Source: Actinomycetes bacterium
GTDB lineage: Bacteria > Actinomycetota > Thermoleophilia > Solirubrobacterales > Solirubrobacteraceae
Assembly (NCBI GenBank): GCA_021846845.1
Contig: JAJZWB010000028.1
Coordinates: 1 to 34,549 of the forward strand
Direction of reading: 5' to 3'
Length of the DNA stretch: 34,549 bases
How positions within the stretch are numbered: the stretch's first letter is position 1; every line of letters starts with the position of its first letter. Under the pieces are notes generated by a model. That model was not told the DNA's origin. It was given only the letters and a program-made list of their open reading frames with translations, and searched no databases. The position numbers and the translations under genes were made by a program. Shown in pieces: positions 12,668-32,788 of the stretch.

Positions 12668-15600
12668 ATGCTGCACGTGCACCGCGCGTCCCGCGCCGAC
12701 AGCCTGGTGGGCGCGCTCGCGGGGCTGCTGTCGGCCACGTCGGCCGATCCCTTCACCCCCGAGGTGGTCTCGGTCCCGACGCGGGGCATGGAGCGATGGC
12801 TGGCCCAGCGGATGTCGCACCTGCTCGGAGCCGAGCCCGGGCGGGACGACGGCGTGTGCGCGAACGTCCGCTTCCCGGCCCCGCGTGAGCTGCTGGCGGG
12901 CGCGGTCGCCACGGCCGCCGGGGTGCTCCCCGAGCACGACCCCTGGCTTCCCGAGCGCATGGTGTGGCCGCTGCTGGAGGTGGTGGAGCGGTCGCTGCAC
13001 GAGCCCTGGCTGTCCACGCTCAGCGCCCACCTGGGCAGGGGCGGGGCCGGGACCGAGCGCCCCGGGCGCGCCCGTCGCCTGATGACCGTCACGCGTCTCG
13101 CCGCGCTGTTCGACCGGTACGCGCGCCACAGGCCCGTGATGCTCGACGCCTGGCGCGCCGGGCGAGACGAGGACGGCTCGGGCGAGCCGCTGGCCGAGGC
13201 CTTCGCATGGCAGGCGGAGCTGTGGCGTCGCCTGCGGGCGCGGATCGGCGCGCCCGACGCCTCGCAGCGCGCCGCCGAGGCCTGCGAGCGGATCGCACGG
13301 GAGCCGGCGGTCGTCGAGCTGCCGCCAAGGCTCGCGCTGTTCGGGCTGACGCGGCTGGCGGCCGGCGAGCTGCGCGTGCTGGAGGCGCTGGCGACCGGGC
13401 GGGACGTGCACCTGTTCCTGCTGCACCCCTCGCCGGAGCTGTGGCGTCGGCTCGGCTGCGCGCCCGCGCCGTCCTCGCCGCTGCGCAGCGTCGACGCCAC
13501 CGGCGAGCTGGTGTCCAACCGGCTGCTCGCGTCGTGGGGACGCGACGCACGGGAGATGCAGCTCGTGCTGCGCTCCTGCGCGGCCGCCGCCGACCATCCG
13601 CACGATCCTGAGGCGGGCGAGCCCGCGCGGAGCCGGACCGAGCTCGGAGAGCCGGCCCGGGCCCGACCCCTGGCGGGGGAGCCGGCGCACACGCTGCTGG
13701 CGGCGATCCAGGCCGACGTGCGCGCGGACAGGCAGCCCCCCGGGCCCCCGCTTCCCGGGCGCCCAGACGCTCGCTTCGAGCTGGCGGCCGAGGACCGGAG
13801 CATCGAGATCCACGCCTGCCACGGGCGTGCGCGGCAGGTCGAGGTGCTCCGCGAGGCCGTGCTCGACGCGCTCGCATCCGACCCGACGCTGGAGCCCCGT
13901 GACGTGATCGTCATGTGCCCGGACGTCGAATCCTTCGCGCCGCTGATCCAGGCGACCTTCGAGCGCGACGAGACCGCTTCCCCGGGCCCCGGGCCGCCCG
14001 AGGCGGAGGCCCCGGACCCCGAGCCGCCCGAGCCGGAGGCCCCGGACCCCGAGCCGCCCGAGCCGGAGGCCCCGGACCCCGAGCCGCCCGAGGCGGAGGC
14101 CCCGGACCCCGAGCCGCCCGAGCCGGAGCCCTCGGACCACCGGTCCCCCGCGGCTGAGCGGCGCGGGGCCCCGCCCGGACCGATCGACCTCCGGGTCAGG
14201 CTCGCCGACCGCTCGATCCGCCGCACGAACCCGGTCCTCGACGCGGTCGCGCGACTGCTGGAGCTGGCCGAGCGGCGGCTGACGGCATCGGAGGTGCTCG
14301 ACCTGGCCGGACGGGCGGCGGTCCGGCGTCGCTTCCGCTTCGACGACGACGAGCTCTCGCTGCTGGCGCAGTGGGTCGCCGAGGCCGGGATCCGCTGGGG
14401 CCTGGATGCCGAGCACCGGGTGCCGTTCAGGCTGGAGGCGCTCGACGCGGGCACCTGGCGAGCGGGGCTCGACCGGCTGCTGCTCGGGGTGGCGATGAGC
14501 GAGGACGGGGGGCGCCTGTTCGGCGGCGCGCTGGCGCTCGACGGCGTCGCCGACGGCTCGATCGACCTCGCCGGCAGGTTCGCCGAGCTGCTCTCCCGCC
14601 TCGGCGCCGCCATGCGATCGCTGAGCGAGGCCCGCACGCCAGCGGGCTGGGCGGAGGCGATCGCGGAGGCGGCCAACTCGCTGACCGCGGCCGGACCGCG
14701 CGAGGGCTGGCAGCGCGCCGAGCTCGCGCGGGTGCTCGAGGAGCTGGTCGCCGGCGCCGGCGAGAGCGCTCCCGTGCTCGAGCCGGCGGAGATCCGTGCC
14801 CACCTGGCCGAGCGACTGGCGGGCCGGCCGACGCGCTCGAGCTTCCGCACCGGGCACCTGACGGTCTGCACGCTGGAGCCGATGCGGTCCGTTCCCCACC
14901 GCGTCGTCTGCCTGCTAGGGCTCGACGACGGGGCCTTCCCCCGCAGGGCGCCGCGCGACGGCGACGACCTCACGCTGCCGTCACCGCGGATCGGCGAGCG
15001 CGACCCGCGCAGCGAGGATCGCCAGCTGTTGCTCGACGCGCTGCTGGCCGCCACCGAGCGGCTGATCGTCACCTACGCGGGGCGCGACGAGCGAACCGGC
15101 TCGTCGCTGCCGCCGGCGGTCCCGATCGGCGAGCTGCTCGACGCGATCGACGCGACCGCCAGGGCCGGCGACCTTCCCGCCTCGTCGCGCGTCGTCGTGC
15201 GCCATCCGCTGCAGCCGTTCCACCCTCGCAACTTCATCCCCGGAGCGGTCGCGGGCCACGGGCCGTGGAGCTTCGATCGCGCCTGGCTATCCGGAGCCGA
15301 GGCGCTCGCCGGTCCGCGGCGACCGCCGGGCCGGCTCCTGGATGCGCCGCTCGCGCACCGGCCCCCGGACGTCGTGGAGCTCGACGACCTGGTCCGGTTC
15401 GTGCAGCGCCCGGTGCGCGCGTTCCTGAGCCGGCGGCTGGACATCGCGCTGCGCCACGACGACGAGGAGACCGCGGACTCGCTGACGATCAAGCTTGATC
15501 CGCTCCAGGTGTGGGGGGTCGGCGATCGGCTGCTGCGGGCGCGGCTGCGCGGGGTCGGCGAGCGGGAGGCGATCCTCGCGGAGATCGCGCGCGGCACCCT

Positions 15601-16348
15601 CCCGCCGGGGGTGCTCGGCATGCCGGTCATCACCCGGGTGTCGCCGATCGTGACCGCGATCCTGCGGGCCGTGAACGCCCGGCTGCCGCCCTGCGCCCCT
15701 CCGGATCCGGCTCGCGCCGAGCCACTCGATGCCCGCGTCGCGCTCGACGGCGGACGGATCCTGTCGGGCACGGTCGCCGGCGTGGTCGGCGACGTCGTCT
15801 TGTCGAGCACCTTCTCACGGGTCGGCCCCCGGGAGCGACTCGCCGCCTGGGCACGGCTGCTGGCGCTCAGTGCCACCTGGCCGCAGCGGCCCTTCACGGC
15901 CGTGACCGTGGGGCGCGCGAGCGGTGACGACGACATCCGGACCGTGACGGTGGGACCGCTCGGCGACAGCACGCAGGAGCGCCGCGCCGTTGCGCTGGAG
16001 CAGCTGGCACTGCTGCTCGACCTCCACGACCGCGGCATGCGGGAGCCGCTTCCGATCGCCGCGCGCAGCTCGTTCGCCTACGCCGAGGCGGCGCGCGCCG
16101 GCGGCGACCCGTCGGCTGCCGCGGCCGCCGTGTGGGACAGCGACTGGCGGCGGCGGGGCGAGGACGTGGAGCCCGAGCACGTGCTCGCGTTCGGGGGGGT
16201 GGTCCGATTCGCCGAGCTGGCGGCTGCCACGCCACGCGACGGCGAGGACGGCGCGCGCCCGTCCCCCGCCGATGGGTCCCGCTTCGGGCTCCTCGCGCTG
16301 CGCCTGTGGGACGAGCTACTGTCGCGCTCGGATGTGAGCTCGCGATGA
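12668..16348 (+). CDS. recC: Exodeoxyribonuclease V subunit gamma RecC
   Basis: Non-catalytic subunit of the RecBCD helicase-nuclease, which processes double-strand ends and, in E. coli, reads Chi. At 1226 residues it is longer than usual (about 1100). The N-terminus (LHVHRASRADSLVGALAGLL, VVSVPTRGMERWLAQRMS) and FALFGLTRL-like segments are RecC-typical. DVIVMCPDVESFAPLIQATF is followed, after the insert, by RVRLADRSIRRTNPVLDAVA, which together mark the family strongly. Part of the extra length is a Pro/Glu/Asp-rich insert (about 430-500) made of five 10-residue repeats. The stop overlaps the recB start by 4 nt (ATGA), so the genes are co-translated. Confidence 0.95.
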   Translation: MLHVHRASRADSLVGALAGLLSATSADPFTPEVVSVPTRGMERWLAQRMSHLLGAEPGRDDGVCANVRFPAPRELLAGAVATAAGVLPEHDPWLPERMVWPLLEVVERSLHEPWLSTLSAHLGRGGAGTERPGRARRLMTVTRLAALFDRYARHRPVMLDAWRAGRDEDGSGEPLAEAFAWQAELWRRLRARIGAPDASQRAAEACERIAREPAVVELPPRLALFGLTRLAAGELRVLEALATGRDVHLFLLHPSPELWRRLGCAPAPSSPLRSVDATGELVSNRLLASWGRDAREMQLVLRSCAAAADHPHDPEAGEPARSRTELGEPARARPLAGEPAHTLLAAIQADVRADRQPPGPPLPGRPDARFELAAEDRSIEIHACHGRARQVEVLREAVLDALASDPTLEPRDVIVMCPDVESFAPLIQATFERDETASPGPGPPEAEAPDPEPPEPEAPDPEPPEPEAPDPEPPEAEAPDPEPPEPEPSDHRSPAAERRGAPPGPIDLRVRLADRSIRRTNPVLDAVARLLELAERRLTASEVLDLAGRAAVRRRFRFDDDELSLLAQWVAEAGIRWGLDAEHRVPFRLEALDAGTWRAGLDRLLLGVAMSEDGGRLFGGALALDGVADGSIDLAGRFAELLSRLGAAMRSLSEARTPAGWAEAIAEAANSLTAAGPREGWQRAELARVLEELVAGAGESAPVLEPAEIRAHLAERLAGRPTRSSFRTGHLTVCTLEPMRSVPHRVVCLLGLDDGAFPRRAPRDGDDLTLPSPRIGERDPRSEDRQLLLDALLAATERLIVTYAGRDERTGSSLPPAVPIGELLDAIDATARAGDLPASSRVVVRHPLQPFHPRNFIPGAVAGHGPWSFDRAWLSGAEALAGPRRPPGRLLDAPLAHRPPDVVELDDLVRFVQRPVRAFLSRRLDIALRHDDEETADSLTIKLDPLQVWGVGDRLLRARLRGVGEREAILAEIARGTLPPGVLGMPVITRVSPIVTAILRAVNARLPPCAPPDPARAEPLDARVALDGGRILSGTVAGVVGDVVLSSTFSRVGPRERLAAWARLLALSATWPQRPFTAVTVGRASGDDDIRTVTVGPLGDSTQERRAVALEQLALLLDLHDRGMREPLPIAARSSFAYAEAARAGGDPSAAAAAVWDSDWRRRGEDVEPEHVLAFGGVVRFAELAAATPRDGEDGARPSPADGSRFGLLALRLWDELLSRSDVSSR
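13981..14130 (+). repeat. In-frame 30-bp minisatellite in recC
   Basis: Five 30-bp units: 13981-14010 (diverged), 14011-14040, 14041-14070, 14071-14100 and 14101-14130 (3' end diverged). Residues 439-488 are thereby five copies of the decapeptide PDPEPPEPEA. Units 2-4 differ by a single C/G change (CCG/GCG). Confidence 0.95.
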
Positions 16349-19300
16349 GCGCGCTCGGCGACCCGGCCCCGTTCGACGTCTGCGGTCCGCTCCCGGCGGG
16401 CGTGACGGTGCTGGAGGCGAGCGCCGGCACGGGCAAGACCCGCACGATCGCCTCGCTCGCAGCCCGCTATGTCGCCGAGGGGACAGCGCTTGACCGCCTG
16501 CTGCTCGTGACGTTCACGCGGATCGCCACGGGCGAGCTGCGCGAACGCGTCCGCGAGCGGCTGGTCGAGGTCGAGCGGGGCCTCGCGCGGGCGATCGCGC
16601 CGGCCGCTTCCCGGCCCGAGGACCCGGTCGTCGCGCTGCTCGCCGGCGGCGACGCCGAACGCTCGCGCGAGCGGCTGGCCCGTGCGATCGCCGGCTTCGA
16701 CGCCGCCACGATCGCGACCACCCACGGCTTCTGCCAGGAGATGCTCTCCGGCCTCGGGGTCGCGGGCGACCTGGATCCCGACGCCGTCTTCGCGGAGGAC
16801 CTCGGCGAGCTGATCGACGAGGTGGTCGACGACCTCTACGTGCGCCGCTTCCACCGCGGGGGGGCGGAGGCGCTCGATCGCCGCCGGGCCGGGGCGATCG
16901 CGCGCGCGGCGATCGCCAACCCCGGAACGCCGATCGCCGCGGCGTCGGACGAGCCCGGCGCGATGCGCGTGCGGCTGGCCGAGGCCGCGCGGGCCGAGTT
17001 CGAGCGGCGCAAGCGGCTGATGGCGATCATGAGCTACGACGACCTGGTCTCACGGCTGCGCGCGACCCTCACTGGAGCCGGCGCCGAGCGCGCCGCGGCA
17101 AGCCTGCGCGCCCGCTTCTCGGTCGTGCTGGTCGACGAGTTCCAGGACACCGACCCGTCGCAGTGGGAGATCCTTCGCCGGGCGTTCGCCGACGGCGGCG
17201 CGACGCTGGTCCTGATCGCCGACCCCAAGCAGGCGATCTACGCGTTCCGCGGCGCCGACGTCTACGCATACCTCGACGCGGCCGGGGCGGCCGGCTCACG
17301 CGCCACCCTGGACGTGAACTGGCGCTCGGACCAGGCATTGATCGATGCGCTGGACACGCTGCTGGCCGGCGTGCGGCTCGGTCACGAGGGGATCGTGCCG
17401 CACCCGGTGCGCGCCGCCCGCGGCCATGAGCTCGCCGGGCTGCAGGGCGCCCCGGCCGCCGAGCCGCTTCGCTTCCGCGTCACGATGCGCGACGATCCGG
17501 CGCTGTCGCTGACCGCTGCGGGCTATGCCGAGAGCGGGTCCGCCCGCCGCCACGTGGCAGCGGACGTCGCCGCCGAGATCGTCCGGCTGCTGAGCTCCGG
17601 CGCGCGCGTGGCGTGCGGGCCCGATCGCGGTCCGGCGGCCGGGCCCGGCCACGAGTCTCCGCCCGCCGGGCCCGCGCGCAGCTCCGAGGAGATCAGGCCC
17701 GCCCACCTCGCCGTGCTCGTTCGAACCAACAGCCAGGCGGCGCTGGTTCGTGACGCGCTTCGGGAGGCGGGCGTGCCGGCGGTCGTCAACGGCTCGGGCA
17801 GCGTGTTCGGCACCGATGCCGCGGCGGACTGGCTGACGCTGCTGCGAGCGCTCGAGCGCCCGGCCGCCCGCGCCCGCGCCCGGGCGGCGGCGCTGACCCC
17901 GTTGATCGGCTGGTCGGCCGCGCGCCTCGACGAGCAGCGAGACCACCGCGATTGGGAGGAGGTGCACGAGCGGCTGCACCGCTGGAGCCGGATCCTGCGC
18001 GACCGGGGCGTCGCCTCCCTGCTGGCGGCGATCGAGCGGGCGCTGTCGTCGGCGCGGGCCGGCGATCCGCCACAGGCGCTAGCGGCCAGGGTCCTGTCGC
18101 AGACGGGCGGTGAGCGACAGCTCACGGATCTGCGTCATGTCGCCCGGCTGCTGCATGCGTCGGCGTCGGAGGGGGAGCTCGGGCCCGCGGCGCTCGCGGC
18201 CTGGCTGCGCACGCGGATCGCGGAGGCCGGCCGCGGCGCGGCGGTCGAGGAGGAGCGCGTGCGCCGGCTGGAGTCCGACGCCTCGGCGGTCCAGGTCCTC
18301 ACGATCCATCGCAGCAAGGGGCTGGAGTTCCCGGTCGTCCACGTCCCGTACCTGTGGGACGTCGGCCGCCAGGGCGACGATCCCGAGCCGGTCGTGTTCC
18401 ACGACCCGGACGCGGGCGACGCGCGGACGCTCGACGTGTCGCTGAGCGGACGCTCCTACGAGACGCACCGGCTCCAGAGCGTGCGCGAGCAGCGCGGCGA
18501 GGATCTGCGGCTCCTGTACGTGGCGCTCACGCGCGCACGCCATCAGGCGGTCGTGTGGTGGGCGGGGTCCTTCCACAGCCGCAACTCCGCGCTCGCGCGC
18601 CTGCTGCTGCACCGCGGCGCGGACGGTGAGGTCGCCGATCACGGCGACCGCACGCCCTCGGACGCCGCGATGCTCGCGCGGCTCAAGGCGCTCTCCCGGA
18701 CGGCCGGACCGGGCCGGATCGCCGTCGAGCGCTCGCGGCTGGAGATGCCACGTTCATGGTCTCCGCCGCCGGAGCCGGGGGCCGAGCTGAGCATCGCCCG
18801 GTTCGCCCGGTCGCTCGACCTGCGCTGGCGGCGGACGTCCTACAGCGCGATCACGGCCGCCGCCCACGAGGCCTGGGTGACCAGCGAGCCGGAGCAGCCG
18901 CGCAGCGAGGACGAGCCTGAGCAGGCGCGGGCGCCGCTGCCCCCCGGGGACCCGCCGGGGCCCGCCGGGGACCCGCCGGGGCCCGCCGCGCCGCGCGCCG
19001 GGGACGATCTCAGCTCCCCGCTGGCGGCGCTGCCCGCCGGCGCCGACGTCGGGACGCTCGTGCACGCCGTGCTTCAGGCGACCGACTTCACGGCGCCCGA
19101 CCTCGACGCGGAGCTGGCGCTTGCTCTGGCCGCGGCGGGCGCGGGCGGGTCGGTGAGGGCCGTCCCGGAGGCGGAGCTGATCACGGGCCTCAGAGCGGCG
19201 ATCGAGACGCCGCTGCACCCGCTCGCCGGCGGCGCGCGGCTGCGCGACATCGCCCGCGGCGATCGGCTGGACGAGCTCGGGTTCGAGCTGCCGCTGGCCG

Positions 19301-19833
19301 GCGGCGAGCGCCCGCGCGGATCGTTGACCACGGCTCGGATCGGGGCGCTGCTGCGCGAGCGCCTGGCGGCCTCGGACCCGCTCTCCGCGTACGCAGCGCG
19401 GCTCGCCGACCCGGCGCTGGAGCGCAGCGTGCGCGGTTACCTGACGGGCAGCCTCGACCTGGTCGTGCGGCTGCGCGGCGACGGGGGGCCGCGCTTCGCG
19501 GTGCTGGACTACAAGACCAACCGGCTCGCGGCGCCCGACGAGCCGCTCACCGTCGGCCACTACCGGCCGGCCGCGCTGCTCGCCGAGATGCTCGACCGCC
19601 ACTATGCGCTCCAGGCGCTCCTCTACCTGGTGGCGCTGCACCGCTTCCTGCGCTGGCGGCTGGCGGGATACGACCCCGACCGCCACCTCGCGGGAGCCGT
19701 CTACCTGTTCCTGCGCGGCATGAGCGGCGCCTCCGGGCCGACCGAGGGCGGCGTTCGCCACGGGGTCTTCGGCTGGGCTCCCCCACCCGGTCTGGTGCCC
19801 GCGCTCAGCGACCTCCTGGACGGTCGGCCCTGA
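16345..19833 (+). CDS. recB: Exodeoxyribonuclease V subunit beta RecB
   Basis: 3'-5' SF1A helicase and nuclease subunit of RecBCD, 1162 residues. Walker A is ASAGTGKT (25-32, K31); Walker B is LVDEFQDTD (D264, E265). IHRSKGLEFPVVHVP and LRLLYVALTRARHQAVVWW are helicase motifs V and VI. The C-terminal nuclease domain keeps GTLVHAVLQ (H907), LTGSLDLVVR (D1038) and VLDYKTN (D1055, K1057), equivalent to the catalytic H, D, D and K of E. coli RecB, so both activities should be intact. A Gly/Pro linker with a duplicated heptapeptide separates helicase and nuclease. ATG 16345 overlaps the recC stop; the frame further upstream is antisense-like read-through within recC. Confidence 0.96.
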   Translation: MSALGDPAPFDVCGPLPAGVTVLEASAGTGKTRTIASLAARYVAEGTALDRLLLVTFTRIATGELRERVRERLVEVERGLARAIAPAASRPEDPVVALLAGGDAERSRERLARAIAGFDAATIATTHGFCQEMLSGLGVAGDLDPDAVFAEDLGELIDEVVDDLYVRRFHRGGAEALDRRRAGAIARAAIANPGTPIAAASDEPGAMRVRLAEAARAEFERRKRLMAIMSYDDLVSRLRATLTGAGAERAAASLRARFSVVLVDEFQDTDPSQWEILRRAFADGGATLVLIADPKQAIYAFRGADVYAYLDAAGAAGSRATLDVNWRSDQALIDALDTLLAGVRLGHEGIVPHPVRAARGHELAGLQGAPAAEPLRFRVTMRDDPALSLTAAGYAESGSARRHVAADVAAEIVRLLSSGARVACGPDRGPAAGPGHESPPAGPARSSEEIRPAHLAVLVRTNSQAALVRDALREAGVPAVVNGSGSVFGTDAAADWLTLLRALERPAARARARAAALTPLIGWSAARLDEQRDHRDWEEVHERLHRWSRILRDRGVASLLAAIERALSSARAGDPPQALAARVLSQTGGERQLTDLRHVARLLHASASEGELGPAALAAWLRTRIAEAGRGAAVEEERVRRLESDASAVQVLTIHRSKGLEFPVVHVPYLWDVGRQGDDPEPVVFHDPDAGDARTLDVSLSGRSYETHRLQSVREQRGEDLRLLYVALTRARHQAVVWWAGSFHSRNSALARLLLHRGADGEVADHGDRTPSDAAMLARLKALSRTAGPGRIAVERSRLEMPRSWSPPPEPGAELSIARFARSLDLRWRRTSYSAITAAAHEAWVTSEPEQPRSEDEPEQARAPLPPGDPPGPAGDPPGPAAPRAGDDLSSPLAALPAGADVGTLVHAVLQATDFTAPDLDAELALALAAAGAGGSVRAVPEAELITGLRAAIETPLHPLAGGARLRDIARGDRLDELGFELPLAGGERPRGSLTTARIGALLRERLAASDPLSAYAARLADPALERSVRGYLTGSLDLVVRLRGDGGPRFAVLDYKTNRLAAPDEPLTVGHYRPAALLAEMLDRHYALQALLYLVALHRFLRWRLAGYDPDRHLAGAVYLFLRGMSGASGPTEGGVRHGVFGWAPPPGLVPALSDLLDGRP
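18946..18987 (+). repeat. Duplicated 21-bp unit in the recB linker
   Basis: GGGGACCCGCCGGGGCCCGC begins two identical 21-bp copies, 18946-18966 and 18967-18987, encoding (GDPPGPA)x2 from residue 868, between the helicase and nuclease domains. Confidence 0.85.
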
Positions 19834-21653
19834 ACGGGCGCGATGTCACCGCGGCTCCCGAGCGGGACCCGTTCGATCCGCGCCTGGCTGGCGAGGCGTC
19901 GGGCCTGCTGCGCGAGTTCAACCGCGCCGGCGTGCTCGCGGCCGCGGACGTGCACGTCGCGCGAGCGCTCGGCCGGCTCGGCGGCGAGGATGACGAGCGG
20001 GTGCTGCTGGCGGTCGCGCTCACGGTGCGCGGGCTGCGCCTTGGACACGTGCTCGTCGGGCTCGACGGGATCGCGAGCGCCGTCGCGGTGGACGCCCAGG
20101 AGCCGGTCTCGCTCGAGGCGCTGCGATGGCCCGACCCGGTGGACTGGATCCCTCGGGTGGCGTCCAGCGGCCTGGTGGCCACGGGCCCGCGGTCGGATGG
20201 CCCGCGGCCGCTGCGACTCGACGGCTCCTCGCTCTATCTCGATCGCTGCTTCGAGCAGGAGACCCGGGTCGCGCGGGCGCTGCGATCGCTCATCGAGCGC
20301 CCGGTCGGCGGGGTCGACGAGCGGCTGCTGGACGAGGGGATCGCACGCCTGTTCGGGCCGGGGAGCGACGACCTCCAGGCGCTCGCCGCGCGCGCGGCGG
20401 TCCGCGAGCGGCTGTCGGTCGTCGCCGGCGGTCCCGGGACCGGCAAGACCACGACGATCGCCCGGATCGTCGCGCTGGTCTGCGAGCAGCCGCGGGCCGC
20501 GGGCGAGCCCGCTCCGCTGGTCGCGCTGACGGCGCCGACCGGGCGCGCCGCGGCGCGCCTGGAGGAGGCGGTCCACGCCGAGGCCGCGCAGCTCGACGTC
20601 GCGCCCGAGCTGCGCTCGCAGCTGCTGTCGATGCGAGCGCAGACGCTGCACCGGCTGCTCGGCCTGCGGCCCGGGGGCGGCGGCCAGAGGCCCGAACGCC
20701 GGCTGGCGCACGATCTGGTGGTCGTCGACGAGACGTCCATGGTCTCGCTGTCGCTGATGGCGTCGCTGACCGGGTCGCTGCGGCCGGCGACCCGCCTGGT
20801 GCTGGTCGGCGACCCGGACCAGCTCACGTCGATCGAGGCCGGCTCGGTGCTGGCCGACATCGTCGGCTCCGGCGAGCGCCCCGGGATCGTGGCGCTCGAG
20901 CGCGTCCACCGGTTCGGAGGCGGGATCGCGACCCTCGCCGCCGCGATCCGCGCCGGCGACGGCGATCGGGTGATGGAGATCCTTCGCTCGCCGCCCGGGG
21001 AGGTGACGTGGCTGCCGGGTGGCGCGGCCGCCGGCGAGCCGCCGCCCGAGGTCCTCTCCCGGGCGCTGGCGGCGGCGGCGGACACGAGCGCCGCCGCGCG
21101 CGCCGGGAGCGCCGCGCAGGCACTGGAGCGCCTGGCCCGGTTCCGCGTGCTGTGCGCCCACCGGCATGGCCCGTACGGCGCGGAGACCTGGTCGGCGATG
21201 ATCGAGGCGCGCGTGCGGCACGGCGGCGACGCAGGCGGCGGGAGCTCCGCGACGTGGTACGCCGGTAGGCCGCTGCTGGCCGTCGAGAACGATCCGGAGC
21301 TTGGGCTGTCCAACGGGGACACCGGGGTGGTCGTGGAGCTCGGCGGGGGCCGGGTGGGTTGCGCGTTCGCGCGCGGCGGCGGGATCGTGCTTCACAGCCC
21401 CAGCCGGCTCGGCCAGGTGCACACCGTCTACGCGTCGACGATCCACCGCAGCCAGGGCTCGCAGTTCGACCGCGCCGCGGTGCTGCTGCCCGAGCAGGGG
21501 TCCCCCCTGCTGACGCGGGAGCTGCTCTACACCGCGGTGACGCGGGCGCGACGCGAGCTGCTGGTGGCCGGCGAGGAGGACTCGATCCGCCGCGCCGTGT
21601 CACGGCCGGCGGCGCGCGCGTCAGGCCTGCGCGCGCGCCTCCGGGACGCCTGA
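19830..21653 (+). CDS. recD: Exodeoxyribonuclease V subunit alpha RecD, probable CTG start
   Basis: 5'-3' SF1B helicase subunit of RecBCD. Walker A is GGPGTGKT (200-207, K206), followed by TAPTGRAAARL, LVVVDETSM, LVGDPDQLTSIEAG, VHRFGG, STIHRSQGSQFD and LYTAVTRARREL. The first usual start codon in frame is GTG 19932, but the reading frame upstream encodes DPFDPRLAGEASGLLREFN, then RAGVLAAADVHVARAL. This is the conserved RecD N-terminus (actinobacterial RecDs carry a similar FNxAGVLxxxDVHVA stretch). No ATG, GTG or TTG lies in frame between the recB region and 19932. CTG 19830 overlaps the recB stop as CTGA, mirroring the recC/recB ATGA junction, and gives 607 residues. Alternative: a shorter product from GTG 19932 or a sequencing error at an original ATG. 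Confidence 0.88.
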   Translation: MNGRDVTAAPERDPFDPRLAGEASGLLREFNRAGVLAAADVHVARALGRLGGEDDERVLLAVALTVRGLRLGHVLVGLDGIASAVAVDAQEPVSLEALRWPDPVDWIPRVASSGLVATGPRSDGPRPLRLDGSSLYLDRCFEQETRVARALRSLIERPVGGVDERLLDEGIARLFGPGSDDLQALAARAAVRERLSVVAGGPGTGKTTTIARIVALVCEQPRAAGEPAPLVALTAPTGRAAARLEEAVHAEAAQLDVAPELRSQLLSMRAQTLHRLLGLRPGGGGQRPERRLAHDLVVVDETSMVSLSLMASLTGSLRPATRLVLVGDPDQLTSIEAGSVLADIVGSGERPGIVALERVHRFGGGIATLAAAIRAGDGDRVMEILRSPPGEVTWLPGGAAAGEPPPEVLSRALAAAADTSAAARAGSAAQALERLARFRVLCAHRHGPYGAETWSAMIEARVRHGGDAGGGSSATWYAGRPLLAVENDPELGLSNGDTGVVVELGGGRVGCAFARGGGIVLHSPSRLGQVHTVYASTIHRSQGSQFDRAAVLLPEQGSPLLTRELLYTAVTRARRELLVAGEEDSIRRAVSRPAARASGLRARLRDA

Positions 21654-25707: not shown

Positions 25708-25786
25708 GGACGCCTCGGCGCGGCCGGCCCCGGGGTCGCCCAGCCCGGCTCGGAGCCGCCCACGCGAGACGGACGCCTCAGCGGCC
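25708..25786 (+). repeat. Short direct repeat flanking a convergent gap
   Basis: GGACGCCTCGGCGCGGCC (25708-25725, directly after the methyltransferase stop) is echoed by GGACGCCTCAGCGGCC (25771-25786, spanning the EAL-protein stop). The first copy also forms a small GAGG-ACG-CCTC hairpin. The rest of the 70-bp gap shows nothing. Confidence 0.45.
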
Positions 25787-28700
25787 CCCGTCGACCCCGA
25801 CCGCGATGCCCTCGGCGTCCGACCGACGATCGGCGTGGCCGGCGAGGCCATCCGCCCCGCCGGCCGGCGGGGCATCGATGCCATCGGCACGCCGCGCCAG
25901 GTACTGGATCAGCTCGGCCGCCGGCATCGGCCGCGCGAACAGGTAGCCCTGTCCGGTCTGGAAGCCCAGCGCTTGCAGCGTGCCGGCCTGCTCCGGGTAC
26001 TCGATCCCCTCGGCGACCACCTCCAGCCCGAACGTCCTGCCGATCCCGACCACCGCCGAGGCCAGCCCGGAGGTCACCGGAGACGCGCCGGCCGCGAGCA
26101 GAGAGCGGTCCATCTTGAGCACGTCGAGCGGAAAGCGGCTGATGTAGCTGAGCGACGAGTAGCCCGTGCCGAAGTCGTCCATCGCGAGCTGCAGGCCGAG
26201 CGCGCGCAGCTCCGCCAGGCGGCGGGCCGCCAGCTCGGTGTCGGTCATCATCACCGACTCGGTGATCTCCAGCGTCAGCGCGTCGCCCGTGAGGCCGGCC
26301 TCGGCCAGCGCGTCGGAGACGTCGGCCACGATATCGGGGTCGAGCAGCTGCTTGACGGACAGGTTGATCCCCACCTTCGGCACGACCGGCCCGCGGATCA
26401 GCTCGCGGATCGCCCGCGCCTGGCGGCAGCCCTCACGCAGCACCCAGCGGCCGATCGGGACGATCAGCCCGGTCTCCTCCGCGAACGGGATGAACTGGTC
26501 AGGCGGTACCAGCCCGCGCATCGGGTGGCGCCAGCGCAGCAGCGCCTCGGCCCCCGTCACGATCCCGTCCGAGAGCCGCACGAGCGGCTGGTAGTGCAGC
26601 TCCAGCTCTCCCCGCTCGACCGCCAGCTGCAGGTCGCCCAGCAGCTCAAGCCGCGCCAGCACCCGCTCGTGCATGGCCGGCTCGAACACCCGGTAGCCGC
26701 CCTTCCCGTCCGCCTTGGCGATGTACATCGCGGCGTCGGCGTTGCGAATCAGCTCGTCGGCGTCGGTCGGGCCACCCGGCTCCGCGACCGAGATCCCGAG
26801 GCTGGCGCGGAGCGTCAGGTCGTTGTGCTCGAGGCGCAGCGGCTCGCCGAGCGACTCAAGGATCCGTGAGGCGGCCTCGACCGCGGCCTGGACGTCGGGG
26901 ACGTCCTCCAGCAGGATCGCGAACTCGTCCCCGCCGAACCGCGCCGCCGTGTCGGCCGATCGCACGGCGGCCGAGATCCGCTTGGCGACCTCCAGCAGCA
27001 CCCGGTCGCCCGCCGCGTGGCCGAGGCTGTCGTTGACGGTCTTGAAATCGTCCAGGTCGATGAACAGGACCGCCATGCCGGCCTCCTCGCGAAGCGCCCT
27101 CGCGACCGCGTGGTGCACGCGCTCGTTGAACAGCGCGCGGTTGGCCAGGTGCGTCACCGGATCGTGGAACGCCTGATGGGCGAGCTGCTCCTCGAACACC
27201 CGGCGCTCGGAGACGTCGCGTCCGTTGAGCACGATCCCGCCGACCGAGGGGTCCGAGAGCAGGTCGGTGTGGAGGATCTCGAAGTGCCGGCGGGTGCCGT
27301 CCTTGTGGGCCAGAAGGCACTCGATCACCTCGCCGCGGCCGCCCGCCGCAGCACCGTCGGTCAGCCTGCGCAGGAACCGGTCCTGCTCGTCGGGGTGCAG
27401 CAGCCGCTCGAACGGCAGCCCCGTGACCTCGGCGTCGGTGTAGCCCAGCACCCGCTCGATCGAGGGGCTCTGGTAGAGGATCCTGCCGTCGGCGTCGATC
27501 ACGGTGATCAGGTCCGTGGAGTTCTGCACCAGCGTCGAGAAGCGCGCCTCCGAAGCCCGGCGGTGGACCTCGGCCGAGAGCTGCGCGCTGCCGAGCGCGA
27601 GCGCGACCTGGTGCGCGAGCGCGCGCAGCGTATTGCGGGTGTCCTCGCCCCGCGTCGCCGGCCCCGCGACGATCATCGTCATCGTCGCCCCCTCGGGGCC
27701 GCTGCCTCGCAGCTCGAGGCTCAGCACCGCCTCGCGACCCGGCGCCAGCCGCAGCTGCTCACGCGCGTAGGCCGGCATGCTCACCAGCCCGCCCGCGCTG
27801 CGATCGGCGATCAGCGCCGCGACCTCGCCGGGGAGCGTCCAGTCGGCCAGCGCGCCGCGAGCGTCGATCGCCTGCACCCGGGCGCTGTCTCCCGCGATCC
27901 GACACAGCCGCGCCTGGACGCCCTCACGGCCCAGCTCCGCGACCGCCCGCAGCGCGGCGACCACGATCTCCTGTGGGTCCGTCGCACAGACCAGGAGACC
28001 GCCGGCCGCGGCGAGCGCGCGCTCGCGGGCCGCGGCCCGCTCACGCTGGCGCACCAGTCCGGTCATCCGCGCCACCACCAGGCAGAAGAGGACGACGGAG
28101 GCGCCGGCGGCCCCGAGCGCGTCCCAGTCGTTGTGCGGGATCGTGCGCAGGATCACCAGCGCCGGAGCGATCAGCGTCGCACCGGCCAGCACCCCGAGCC
28201 GCGCGGTGGTCAGGCGCTGCTCGCCCGGCGGCGCGGGCTCCGACACGCTCGCCATCGAGGGGTGCAGCGCCGCCGCCGCCCACAGCAGGTAGACGGCGAA
28301 ACGCGTCACGGCCACCACGGCCTGGCCGTGATAGTCCCCCGCGACCCGCAGCACCCCCCAGACGAGGTCGCTCGCCTGGAGCATCACGACCGAGGAGCCC
28401 AGCAGGATCAGCGACGGCCGGCGGCGGCCGCCGTCGATCGCCAGACGGACCACCGCGCCCAGCGAGAACAGGTCGCCGATCGCGTGACCGATCAGCATCA
28501 CGCGCGTGCCGGCGTCCAGGCCGGCATCGCCGAACGCGGGGGCGATCACGAATATCCCCGGGATCAGGCTGAGGCCGAGCGTCACGATCAGAGCGTCGAC
28601 GAGCTCGCTGCCGTGCGCGCGCGGGCTGCGCCGGCGCGACAGGATGCTCAGCCCTGCGATCAGCGGCACGTAGGCCGCCAGCGTCAGCAGACCGGCGAGC

Positions 28701-28984
28701 AGCGGCAGCGGACGCCTGGCGGCGCTCGTGCCGCCGATGGCGGCGTCGACCGCGCTCAGCCAGAAGATCGCGATCGAGGCGGCCAGGCAGAGCCATGGAA
28801 CGGCGTGCGCCGGCCGGCGCAGGGCGATCCCCGCGGCGACCCCGGCGAGCGCGTAGAGCCCGATCGCCGCGAGCGCGATCCGGCCGGCCTGAAGGCCGGG
28901 CACGGCGAGATAGGCGCCGCATGCGATCGCGCCGCCGCCGAGATGGAACACCCACAGGTTGTGGGGACCCGCCCTGGCTCTCAT
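25778..28984 (-). CDS. Membrane-anchored GAF/PAS-GGDEF-EAL cyclic-di-GMP protein
   Basis: A 1068-residue inner-membrane protein that should make and/or degrade c-di-GMP. About eight membrane helices occupy 11-310. A helical stretch and GAF-like region follow (about 315-470), then PAS (about 478-595; ARFSTLVQNSTDLITVIDAD). The GGDEF domain (602-770) keeps an intact active site (684-688) and the inhibitory RxxD site RSAD (675-678). The EAL domain (780-1030) keeps EALLRW (813-818), EITES, DDFGTGYSSLSY (936-947), KMDRSLL and EGIEYPEQ. Both halves look catalytically competent. ATG 28984 is chosen because the hydrophobic region begins there and it lies 10 bp after the preceding gene's stop; residues encoded further upstream are antisense to that gene. 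It is the last gene of the four-gene operon. Confidence 0.93.
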   Translation of the reverse strand: MRARAGPHNLWVFHLGGGAIACGAYLAVPGLQAGRIALAAIGLYALAGVAAGIALRRPAHAVPWLCLAASIAIFWLSAVDAAIGGTSAARRPLPLLAGLLTLAAYVPLIAGLSILSRRRSPRAHGSELVDALIVTLGLSLIPGIFVIAPAFGDAGLDAGTRVMLIGHAIGDLFSLGAVVRLAIDGGRRRPSLILLGSSVVMLQASDLVWGVLRVAGDYHGQAVVAVTRFAVYLLWAAAALHPSMASVSEPAPPGEQRLTTARLGVLAGATLIAPALVILRTIPHNDWDALGAAGASVVLFCLVVARMTGLVRQRERAAARERALAAAGGLLVCATDPQEIVVAALRAVAELGREGVQARLCRIAGDSARVQAIDARGALADWTLPGEVAALIADRSAGGLVSMPAYAREQLRLAPGREAVLSLELRGSGPEGATMTMIVAGPATRGEDTRNTLRALAHQVALALGSAQLSAEVHRRASEARFSTLVQNSTDLITVIDADGRILYQSPSIERVLGYTDAEVTGLPFERLLHPDEQDRFLRRLTDGAAAGGRGEVIECLLAHKDGTRRHFEILHTDLLSDPSVGGIVLNGRDVSERRVFEEQLAHQAFHDPVTHLANRALFNERVHHAVARALREEAGMAVLFIDLDDFKTVNDSLGHAAGDRVLLEVAKRISAAVRSADTAARFGGDEFAILLEDVPDVQAAVEAASRILESLGEPLRLEHNDLTLRASLGISVAEPGGPTDADELIRNADAAMYIAKADGKGGYRVFEPAMHERVLARLELLGDLQLAVERGELELHYQPLVRLSDGIVTGAEALLRWRHPMRGLVPPDQFIPFAEETGLIVPIGRWVLREGCRQARAIRELIRGPVVPKVGINLSVKQLLDPDIVADVSDALAEAGLTGDALTLEITESVMMTDTELAARRLAELRALGLQLAMDDFGTGYSSLSYISRFPLDVLKMDRSLLAAGASPVTSGLASAVVGIGRTFGLEVVAEGIEYPEQAGTLQALGFQTGQGYLFARPMPAAELIQYLARRADGIDAPPAGGADGLAGHADRRSDAEGIAVGVDGGR

Positions 28985-28994
28985 GACGACCCGG

Positions 28995-30140
28995 TTACTC
29001 GGCCGGGACGCTGCGCAGCTTGACCGGCGAGGGGACCGAATCGAGCGCCAGCCGGAGCTGGTCGACCTGCTCATCGGTGTGAGCCGCGGTGATGCGGACC
29101 ACGGGACCGCCGGTCGGGCCCCGGGCGGGGGCGTGGATCCCGTGCTCCAGCAGCGCCTCGCGGGCGCCGCGCTCAAGCTCCATGGCCGGGAACGCAGGGA
29201 TCCCGCGCGCCGCCCGCTCGCCTGCGCGCAGCGGCCCGAGCGCTCGCTCGGCGAGCCGGTGAAGCCGTGCACGAAGCAGATCGCCGCGCCGCTCGTTGAC
29301 GCCCAGGCCCTCGATCGCGATCGCCAGAGCCGCGACGAACTGCGGGCACGGTCCGGTCGCTGCAGCCGCTGCGTCCAGCGGGCGCGAGACCGGCTCCGAG
29401 GAGGCTACGAACGCCACGGGCGAGGCGCACAGGGATGACAGGGACGCGGCGATCACGAGCGCCGCGGGGTCGGCGTCGAGGTGGGCGGCCGTGCCGCTGC
29501 CCCGGATCCCGTAGGGCGATGGCTCGAACGGCGAGCGCTCGCCGAGCACGCCAAGCGCGGCCGTGTCCTGGACGTAGAGCAGCGCCCCGTGGTCGCGGGC
29601 CACCGTCGCGAGTGCGGCCAGCGCCGCGGGGGCGCCCGTCAGCGGGTCGACGCCCTCGACGCAGATCAGCCCTGGACGCCGCCAGCCGCCGCGGAGCTGC
29701 GCGACGAGCCGATCCGGATCGCCGCGGCGCAGCGGGCGAACCGTCGCCCCGTGGTCGCCGGCGACCGCCGCCGCGTCCACGAGCGACCGTCCCGCACGGT
29801 CGTCCAGGAACACCGTCCCGGTGCCGGCGAGCGCCGGGAGCGCGAGCAGGTGCGCGCGCTCGATCGATGGGGCGAGCAGCAGCCGCTCGCACCCCACCAG
29901 CCGCGTCAGCGCCGACGAGAGTCGCTCGTGCAGGACGGTCGGCGGCGACCAGGACGCCTGCGCCCCCCAGCGCGCCAGGTACTCGGGGACGGCGTCGATC
30001 ACCTCCTCATCGAGGTCCAGGCCCAGGTGGCAGGCCGAGCCGAAGTCGACCAGCCAGCGCTCGCCGATCCTGACGTCGCGTCCGTCGACCTCCTCGATCG
30101 CCGCGCTCACGCGGCCGCGCTCGGCGTCCCTGCTTCGCAT
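28995..30140 (-). CDS. Alpha-oxoamine-synthase-fold protein lacking the PLP lysine (pseudoenzyme)
   Basis: A 381-residue protein with the layout of AONS/KBL/CqsA-type PLP enzymes: DGRDVRIGERWLVDFGSA and CHLGLDLDEEV at the N-terminus, RSLVDAA, CVEGVDPLTGAPAALAAL, YVQDTAALGVLGERS (189-203), and VVRITAAHTDEQVDQL (347-362). The catalytic positions are lost. By motif alignment with E. coli BioF, the PLP-stacking His is G117, the ring-binding Asp is Q191, the next active-site His is A194, and the Schiff-base Lys region reads AASLSSLCASP (231-241) with no Lys. The only lysine in the protein is K374, near the C-terminus. It therefore cannot form a normal internal aldimine; it may bind a ligand or partner instead. 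It starts at ATG 30140, 8 bp after the kinase stop and 10 bp before the c-di-GMP gene. Confidence 0.85.
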   Translation of the reverse strand: MRSRDAERGRVSAAIEEVDGRDVRIGERWLVDFGSACHLGLDLDEEVIDAVPEYLARWGAQASWSPPTVLHERLSSALTRLVGCERLLLAPSIERAHLLALPALAGTGTVFLDDRAGRSLVDAAAVAGDHGATVRPLRRGDPDRLVAQLRGGWRRPGLICVEGVDPLTGAPAALAALATVARDHGALLYVQDTAALGVLGERSPFEPSPYGIRGSGTAAHLDADPAALVIAASLSSLCASPVAFVASSEPVSRPLDAAAAATGPCPQFVAALAIAIEGLGVNERRGDLLRARLHRLAERALGPLRAGERAARGIPAFPAMELERGAREALLEHGIHAPARGPTGGPVVRITAAHTDEQVDQLRLALDSVPSPVKLRSVPAE

Positions 30141-30148
30141 CAGCGGCC

Positions 30149-31075
30149 TTATCGGACGGGGCGAGCTGGTTCTGTAGGTGCTCTGGCCGTTGTGGCGGGC
30201 GTGGATTGGGCGATCGCGATCGCTCCGAGGACGCCGGCGCGCGACCCCAATCGCGGCGCCACGAGGTACTCGCCGATCCGCTCCCCGAGCAGCGGCGTGG
30301 GTGGATAGCCGGCCGCCAGCGCGCGCAGCCGGACGCGCACCGCGTCAAGCAGGGCGGGGCGGGCGAGCACCCCGCCGCCGAGGATCATCCGGTGCGGCGA
30401 GGCGACCGAGACGATCGCGAGGATCCCGAGCGCCAGGTACTCGGCCTCGAGCGCCCACGCCGGGTGATCGTCCGCGAGGGTCCTCGCTTCGGCGCCCCAG
30501 CGGGCGGCGATCGCCGGGCCCGACGCCAGCCCCTCCCAGCAGTCGCCGTGCACCGGGCAGACGCCCGCGAACGGGTCCGCGCCGCGGTCGTGAGGGATCC
30601 GCAGGTGGCCCGCCTCGGGGTGGACGAGGCCGTGGTGGCACCGACCGTCTATCACCAGGCCGGCCCCGATGCCGGTGCCGACGGTGAGATAGCACACCGT
30701 TCCGGCGCCGGCGCCGGCCCCCCACCGCTGCTCGGCCAGGGCGGCGGCCGCGACGTCGGTGTCGATCCCGACCGGGACGGCGAGCGCATCCCGCAGGCCG
30801 GGCGCCAGCGGGAATCCGCTCCAGCCCGGCTTCGGCGTGGCGGTGACGTGGCCCCAGGTCGGCGAGCCGGGATCCAGGTCCAGCGGCCCGAACGCGCCGA
30901 TCCCGACCGCTGACGGCCTGGGATGCGCCGCGAAGAAGTCCGCGATCCGCGCGACGGTCCGCTCCGGCGGCCCGGTCCTGAAGCGATGCTCGGCGAGGAT
31001 CCGGTCCGGGCCGGTCCCGAGCGCGCATGCGCACCAGGTCCCGCCGGTCTCGACCCCGCCGAAGACCTCGCTCAT
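30149..31075 (-). CDS. ROK-family fructokinase (YdhR/GmuE type)
   Basis: Phosphorylates a hexose, most likely fructose, with ATP in the cytoplasm; 308 residues. VFGGVETGGTWCACALG (4-20) is the phosphate-1 loop, SAVGIGAFGPLDL the sugar-side motif, GIDTDVAAAALAE holds the catalytic Asp (D107), and YLTVGTGIGAGLVIDG the phosphate-2 loop. HPEAGHLRI with CPVHGDCWEGLASGPAI gives the ROK zinc site H157, C173, H176, C179. The run HGDCWEGLASGPAIAARWG and the ending PRLGSRAGVLGAI match Bacillus fructokinases closely. One oddity: the usual GGTK has W14 instead of Lys. ATG 31075 overlaps the glycosidase stop by 4 nt (ATGA), so translation is coupled. Confidence 0.88.
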   Translation of the reverse strand: MSEVFGGVETGGTWCACALGTGPDRILAEHRFRTGPPERTVARIADFFAAHPRPSAVGIGAFGPLDLDPGSPTWGHVTATPKPGWSGFPLAPGLRDALAVPVGIDTDVAAAALAEQRWGAGAGAGTVCYLTVGTGIGAGLVIDGRCHHGLVHPEAGHLRIPHDRGADPFAGVCPVHGDCWEGLASGPAIAARWGAEARTLADDHPAWALEAEYLALGILAIVSVASPHRMILGGGVLARPALLDAVRVRLRALAAGYPPTPLLGERIGEYLVAPRLGSRAGVLGAIAIAQSTPATTARAPTEPARPVR

Positions 31076-32775
31076 CTCGCGGTGGCGGGCGCCGTCCTGA
31101 CGGGCGGGAGCGTCAGCAGCGCGGCGCTGCCCGGCGCCAGCCTGATCCTGTAGGCGCCGGCGCGCGGCTCGGCCGACTCCGGCACCGGCGCCGGCAGCGA
31201 TCCGGTCGCCGTGAGCGATCCGAAGCTGCGTCCGCCGAGCGACACTCCGCCGGTCGAGTACGCGCTCGCGGCGCGCAGGCGCTCGAGCGCGGCCGCCGCG
31301 CTCGAGGACGCGCCGCCGGCGCGGCCCGCGACCCTCACGAGCGCCAGCGCGGTGCTGCTCAGGCTGTCGTTGATCAGCAGCACCCGGACCCGTCCGTCGG
31401 GCGCGGTCGTCGCCCAGGACCTCAGCGTCACGGGGTCGGCGGAGGTCGCCCGCAGCAGCCGCGAGCCCGCGGGAGCCGCCTGCGTGAACATCAGCGCGCC
31501 GTAGTAGAGCGGGTGGACGCTGGCCAGCCAGTCGCCGCCGGCGTGGGTGAAGTCGAACAGGTCGTTGACCAGACCGGAGAAGTTGTGCAGCTGCACGCCG
31601 TCGATCCCGGCGGCGTCCACCCGGAACAGGGCGTCCAGCAGCCACAAGGCGGAGGCGAGCGTGTCGCTGACCCCGGCGCGCCCGTTGCAGCTGATCGAGC
31701 CCATCTCGTCGATCAGGAACTTCGCGCCGTAGCGGTGCGCGAGGGCGATCCCGGGTCCGAGGCCGCGCACGGCCCCGCTTGCGGCGGCCGGCGTGAGCAG
31801 GTTGGGGACGCTCGGGTAGCCGGACGAAGCGGGGTTGCCGTCGCAGCGGCTGAGCGGATAGTCGTGCACGGCGATCAGTCGCAGCCTGGATCGCGGCCCC
31901 AGGCGCCGCTCGAAGCCCTGCAGCAGCGACGGCGTACCGTCGTCGGGACCGGCGAGCGGCACGCCCTTGGGCAGCGCCGCCGCGACGCGTGACCATTCCC
32001 GCTCGTACGCGGCCGGTCCGTAGGTCGGCGCGCGTCCGTAGACGGCCGTCCCGCCCTGGGAGTACCAGGGGATCGCCTTGCCGTGCAGGATCCGGTACCA
32101 GGGGATCTGCGAGTACAGCATCGGCTCGTTGCCGATCGTCAGCGCCTCGGTCATGCCCCCGAGCCCCGCCAGCAGATGCCCCGCCTCGACCGCGTCGATC
32201 CGCGGCCGGTCGGCCTCGAGCCCCAGGCCGAGGATCAGCTTCGCGTTCAGCGCCTGCGCGAGCGCGGCGGCCGACGCCACCCACGCGGGCGTCAGGTCAT
32301 AGGTGATCCCGGGCGGCCGCGGCATGCCGGGTACCGGCCACCAGCTGCGGTCGGCGCTCTGCCCGCCGATCCGCAGCACCGTGCCACCGGCGGGATCCAG
32401 CGCGTGCACGAGCGCGACCAGCACCGGGTCGACCGCGGAGGCGCTGCGGGCGCCCGCCAGGGAGGGGATCGAGCGGTACTCGAGCGCCAGCCCCAGGAAG
32501 CCGGGCGCAAGCGGCCGGCCCCGGGCGACGCTGCCGACGTCGACCGCGATCGGGACAACCGGGGCGGCGTGGGCGACCGGCACCCGCTGCCGCATGGCGG
32601 GGAGGGACAGAGCCCGCCCTGCGGCGCGGGCGGCCGGCACGGCCTGGGCGGCCGAGGCGACGGGCACGATGTGGACCGCGCAGGCGACCGCGATCCCCGC
32701 GGCCAGCGCCACCGCCGGCCTCGTCACGAGCGCCCGCGTCCGGCGCCGGACATGCATGTCGCGGGTCGCTCGCAT
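31072..32775 (-). CDS. Secreted GH79-like glycoside hydrolase
   Basis: A 567-residue secreted protein. A basic N-terminus and hydrophobic stretch (about 18-42, ending VASAAQA) form a signal peptide. The mature part resembles GH79/clan GH-A beta-glucuronidase-like enzymes: FLGLALEYRSI, VLRIGGQSADRSWW, TIGNEPMLYS with the acid/base Glu (E217), and FLIDEMGSISC with the nucleophile (E357), followed by a C-terminal beta domain (about 440-560). It would release a sugar, perhaps a uronic acid, from an extracellular glycan; the substrate is inferred only. ATG 32775 is chosen because a -10-like hexamer sits 8 nt upstream; TTG 32784 and ATG 32757 are alternatives. It is the first gene of a four-gene operon. 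Confidence 0.8.
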   Translation of the reverse strand: MRATRDMHVRRRTRALVTRPAVALAAGIAVACAVHIVPVASAAQAVPAARAAGRALSLPAMRQRVPVAHAAPVVPIAVDVGSVARGRPLAPGFLGLALEYRSIPSLAGARSASAVDPVLVALVHALDPAGGTVLRIGGQSADRSWWPVPGMPRPPGITYDLTPAWVASAAALAQALNAKLILGLGLEADRPRIDAVEAGHLLAGLGGMTEALTIGNEPMLYSQIPWYRILHGKAIPWYSQGGTAVYGRAPTYGPAAYEREWSRVAAALPKGVPLAGPDDGTPSLLQGFERRLGPRSRLRLIAVHDYPLSRCDGNPASSGYPSVPNLLTPAAASGAVRGLGPGIALAHRYGAKFLIDEMGSISCNGRAGVSDTLASALWLLDALFRVDAAGIDGVQLHNFSGLVNDLFDFTHAGGDWLASVHPLYYGALMFTQAAPAGSRLLRATSADPVTLRSWATTAPDGRVRVLLINDSLSSTALALVRVAGRAGGASSSAAAALERLRAASAYSTGGVSLGGRSFGSLTATGSLPAPVPESAEPRAGAYRIRLAPGSAALLTLPPVRTAPATAR

Positions 32776-32782
32776 TGCGGGC

Positions 32783-32788
32783 AAGTTA
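32783..32788 (-). promoter_or_regulatory. -10-like hexamer of the glycosidase/c-di-GMP operon
   Basis: On the minus strand TAACTT (TAnnnT) ends 8 nt before ATG 32775, with no Shine-Dalgarno between, consistent with a leaderless transcript of the four-gene operon. A convincing -35 is not visible. Confidence 0.4.

Follow-up and report, generated by a model that had tools for sequence, protein, structure and literature searches.

The window analyzed here, a stretch of 34,549 nucleotides of contig JAJZWB010000028.1, carries on its minus strand a run of closely spaced genes, one of which encodes a protein of the alpha-oxoamine synthase (AOS) fold, designated P0001. The features considered below are as follows.

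25778-28984, minus strand: gene of the partner, a 1068-aa membrane receptor-like protein with about nine hydrophobic segments (residues 10-314), PAS, GGDEF and EAL domains
28995-30140, minus strand: gene of P0001, a catalytically dead AOS-fold protein of 381 aa, ortholog of an intact AOS subfamily
29433-29435, minus strand: codon of Ser236, in place of the Schiff-base Lys that is invariant in 31 intact relatives
29559-29570, minus strand: QDTA at residues 191-194, replacing the DDAH motif in an alignment with 31 intact orthologs
29568-29570, minus strand: Gln191, in place of the ring-N Asp (same alignment)
29559-29561, minus strand: Ala194, in place of the O3' His (same alignment)
29790-29792, minus strand: codon of Gly117, in place of the PLP ring-stacking His (same alignment)
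30149-31045, minus strand: ROK-family kinase gene, standing upstream of the P0001 gene in the same run

The reading frame of P0001 is open from ATG to stop. The ROK kinase gene ends 8 nt ahead of its start and the receptor gene begins 10 nt past its stop, in agreement with the tight operon with a c-di-GMP enzyme described in the initial annotation. The catalytic motifs of the receptor, GGDEF and EALLRW, are intact. Upstream of the ROK kinase gene, in the same gene run (31072-32784, minus strand), lies a gene whose 570-aa product has a hydrophobic stretch at its N-terminus and matched no Pfam family. On the plus strand, the RecC, RecB and RecD genes follow one another as an ordinary recBCD cluster (12668-21653). 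A ROK kinase gene beside the AOS gene was not seen in relatives, and the MFS gene that follows the receptor gene in several relatives was not found in the window.

To assign P0001 to a family, sequence profiles and structure prediction were combined. Its NCBIfam matches were BioF (E 6.5e-24) and serine palmitoyltransferase (SPT; 3.6e-16), both far under the curated cut-offs; P0001 failed the BioF/KBL/SPT equivalog test, with 84 bits against the bioF cut-off of 426 and lower scores for the others. AOS enzymes of the PDB were matched down to 5e-11 (phmmer). Pfam returned no family for P0001 at 1e-3, and an intact relative matched Aminotran_1_2 at 2.7e-27. The AlphaFold2 model of P0001 had a pLDDT of 71.9, below the 80.1 of an intact relative. 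The top 50 Foldseek matches of this model were all AOS-family chains, and VIA-align placed it on BioF, KBL and SPT with Z values of about 30-31. The AOS scaffold that the initial annotation had read from the sequence is thus borne out by homology and predicted structure alike.

Relatives were sought in 232 genomes of the order, in a 399-genome sample of the class and in two related families. The search of the order and class recovered a subfamily about 40% identical to P0001, including 31 full-length members that are about 72% identical among themselves. The PLP-site His, both Asp, the second His and the Lys are invariant in all 31. In 30 of the 32 loci the AOS gene stands directly upstream of a receptor ortholog on the same strand, and the two reading frames mostly overlap by 4 nt. 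The window shares this AOS-then-receptor arrangement on one strand, with a gap of 10 nt, which showed that the P0001 gene is the syntenic ortholog of the intact subfamily.

Alignment with these orthologs revealed the replacements H117G, D191Q, H194A and K236S in P0001, so that the residues given earlier for the Schiff-base Lys, the ring Asp and the two His were all correctly assigned; K374 is indeed the sole Lys of the protein. Two Arg residues that never vary in the intact relatives, Arg66 and Arg347, are absent as well, and four loop segments, bearing LLG, YLY, IDAVGRF and YPLVPK, are deleted. P0001 therefore has the fold and the full-length homology of a catalytic AOS but lacks its Schiff-base Lys, both His and the ring-N Asp, showing an AOS fold in which the PLP site is wholly destroyed. 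That it still works as an enzyme, through another nucleophile or with PLP held non-covalently, is scarcely credible: the retained fold is all that speaks for it, and the replaced Lys, His, Asp and Arg residues and the lost loops stand against it.

Loss of the Lys or of the PLP site was found in no other genome among the 232 of the order and the 399 of the class, nor did a closer dead ortholog turn up in the order, the sampled class or the two related families; a scan of genome contigs gave only two ordinary AOS genes, in which the Lys is intact. P0001 is thus confirmed as a real, lineage-specific pseudoenzyme. A non-catalytic protein of this fold might in principle form a heterodimer with a catalytic AOS, by analogy with LCB1/SPTLC1 and its partner LCB2/SPTLC2; eukaryotic SPT offers the precedent (PMC3794620), and AOS enzymes dimerize, their active site lying at the interface. 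However, no paralog of the P0001 subfamily is left in the genome, and the only other AOS found there is KBL-like (contig 19, 29% identical); genus mates that have no dead AOS possess this type too. We therefore regard a heterodimer as very improbable.

To judge whether the gene is still selected, we compared rates of change and, in simulations with simple mutation models, let intact genes diverge neutrally until the observed identity was reached. AOS identity falls from 72% among the intact members to 39% for the window copy, but that of the partner only from 56% among relatives to 46%, which implied an acceleration confined to the AOS gene. At 75% GC, the simulated neutral gene kept zero stops with P 0.03-0.43, so the lack of stops is uninformative at this high GC. 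Sites invariant in the intact relatives were retained at 0.525 in P0001, against 0.51 +/- 0.05 under neutrality. The intact frame was accordingly rejected as proof of selection, and the argument of the initial annotation from an intact frame to a selected protein is not supported in that form.

Other measures depart from neutrality. GC1-GC2 of the P0001 gene is 0.256, compared with 0.235 in intact genes and 0.137-0.153 in the neutral simulations; the neutral null was rejected with z 2.9-4.6 in 12 settings, and the observed value was unreached in 1800 runs. In composition the gene matches the ordinary genes of the window, the replacements are more conservative than neutral ones (z about 2-3.3), and the internal indels, about four, are all in frame, with no frameshift. 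The partner, used as a positive control for the neutral test, gave little power because partners already differ much. All three features, codon-position composition, replacements and indels, speak against simple decay. As for the outcome that would have told against a selected pseudoenzyme, namely a Lys loss unique to this sequence under relaxed selection, the loss is unique to P0001 among the genomes searched, and the picture of selection is mixed, with strong acceleration yet constraint-like composition, replacements and indels.

A frame might also be kept merely as a translational spacer, the protein itself being functionless, since stops or frameshifts would exert a polar effect on the receptor gene. 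The gaps of 8 and 10 nt and the 4-nt overlaps of most intact relatives would suit such a role. It does not, however, predict the preserved codon-position composition and the conservative replacements, and genus mates possess the receptor gene with no AOS gene upstream; we consider a spacer improbable.

The history of the pair within the genus was examined through the receptor. An AOS tree for placing P0001 was rejected, as its end branch was off scale (10 changes per column) and the placement meaningless, and the receptor tree was used instead. In this tree the window groups with six genus mates with support 100, some of the assemblies being incomplete (69-93%). Five of these genus mates, with readable flanks, carry the receptor with neither an adjoining AOS gene nor a remnant; the receptor of the sixth is cut off by the contig end. 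Lenient tblastn of the region preceding the receptor gene in genus mates gave chance-level matches only, and a profile search of 28 genomes in the genus found no AOS ortholog in the other genomes. The relatives and the window thus form a loss series of intact pair, dead synthase with receptor, and receptor alone. The five genus mates suggested that the receptor outlives the synthase in this genus, the window belonging to the only genome in which a synthase, though dead, would be left.

The membrane domain of the receptor was then compared across these states, its identity being expressed relative to that of the catalytic half. This ratio was 0.78-0.97 in 26 AOS-paired receptors and averaged 0.74 in ten receptors from AOS-less genomes (Mann-Whitney P 5e-5, uncorrected for phylogeny). 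The five AOS-less genus mates gave 0.67-0.70, and the window had the lowest value of any GGDEF-EAL member, 0.59. Among unpaired receptors with an AOS elsewhere in the genome, two resembled paired ones (0.85 and 0.86) and one stood at 0.74. That the membrane domain diverges when the AOS is dead or missing suggests that this domain is constrained by the AOS product, which the receptor may sense.

These observations bear on whether P0001 is a late-stage relic, that is, whether the synthase became dispensable and its gene, recently freed of all catalytic constraint, is now drifting in frame towards the deletion that has already taken place in its genus mates. The loss of invariant sites at the neutral rate, a probability of no stop as high as 0.43, the five genus mates with receptor and readable flanks but no AOS or remnant, and a receptor membrane domain that is degenerating too all agree with a relic. 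On the other side, GC1-GC2 is too high and the replacements too conservative for pure drift, and the indels are all in frame, as judged against simulated nulls with assumed mutation models. We take the relic to be a serious but somewhat doubtful explanation, and altered selection is slightly favoured over it. That P0001 is still selected as a folded protein, freed of catalytic constraints, stands for us at about an even chance, and the relic keeps the weight it has, because the nulls rest on simple mutation models and the dead form occurs in one genome only.

Our preferred explanation, a pseudoenzyme under changed selection after loss of the synthase, would run as follows. The intact AOS would join an amino acid and an acyl thioester into an aminoketone-type molecule, which the multi-helix N-terminal domain of the partner would sense; the GGDEF/EAL output of the receptor would then set c-di-GMP, in a logic resembling that of CqsA/CqsS. 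In the window lineage, synthase function would have been lost and the receptor membrane domain released from its ligand, and the dead AOS would persist as a folded, non-catalytic protein under weaker, altered selection at the protein level, its most plausible role being that of a subunit or regulator contacting the receptor or another protein. As a whole, this account seems to us evenly poised between right and wrong. A bolder form of it, in which the intact relatives provide the synthase of an undescribed AOS-to-c-di-GMP signalling pair and the dead synthase has become the protein partner of the receptor, as ligand binder or regulator, with contact replacing synthesis, is rather unlikely.

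The dead copy also exposes a conserved two-gene unit, an intact AOS with a multi-helix PAS-GGDEF-EAL protein, that occurs in three or more families of this class (L058-L069, L090-L109) and is possibly an undescribed synthase-receptor pair with c-di-GMP output. The tie to signal-synthase-like biology proposed in the initial annotation gains support from this conserved pairing. Since the constraint on the membrane domain drops when the synthase is dead or absent, the AOS product as receptor ligand is directly testable, and the intact pair may merit more attention than the dead copy. Two genomes, G202 and G200, have an intact AOS with no adjoining receptor and a receptor homolog on another contig (L067 and L129; L063 and L132, respectively), which suggests a split pair. 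A separate, PRK07505-like AOS subfamily with an FGSCSYLGLE motif and an unassigned C-terminal extension adjoins GGDEF-EAL genes as well (L057:3494-5826, L074:6244-8697), the neighbour in L057 bearing a CHASE domain; AOS and c-di-GMP genes are thus neighbours more than once.

AOS-fold proteins without the PLP lysine are already known from LCB1/SPTLC1 (PMC3794620), and CqsA and LqsA are AOS-like enzymes whose signals are received by multi-helix membrane kinases, the products of adjoining genes (PMC3376566). Our literature search found no paper linking an alpha-oxoamine synthase with c-di-GMP and no bacterial non-catalytic AOS protein, such proteins being known from eukaryotic SPT. Compared with BioF, KBL, SPT and ALAS, P0001 shares the fold type I AOS scaffold over its full length (Z about 30, with BioF and SPT model matches) but has no PLP site and scores far under the curated cut-offs. 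It resembles LCB1/SPTLC1, the non-catalytic subunit of eukaryotic SPT, in having an AOS fold without the PLP lysine, and differs in being bacterial, in sharing an operon with a c-di-GMP enzyme and in that its genome carries no catalytic paralog of the same subfamily as a cognate partner. The autoinducer-synthase (CqsA/LqsA) model gave 22.8 bits for P0001 and 85 for the intact relatives against a cut-off of 428, and the subfamily is nearer in sequence to BioF and SPT than to CqsA, the window copy moreover being dead. The partner, too, falls outside the CqsA/LqsA type, with a PAS-GGDEF-EAL architecture and no cognate sensor histidine kinase gene. The intact relatives nevertheless resemble CqsA/CqsS and LqsA/LqsS in that an AOS-fold synthase is co-encoded with a multi-helix membrane receptor, the receptor here being a PAS-GGDEF-EAL protein rather than a histidine kinase.
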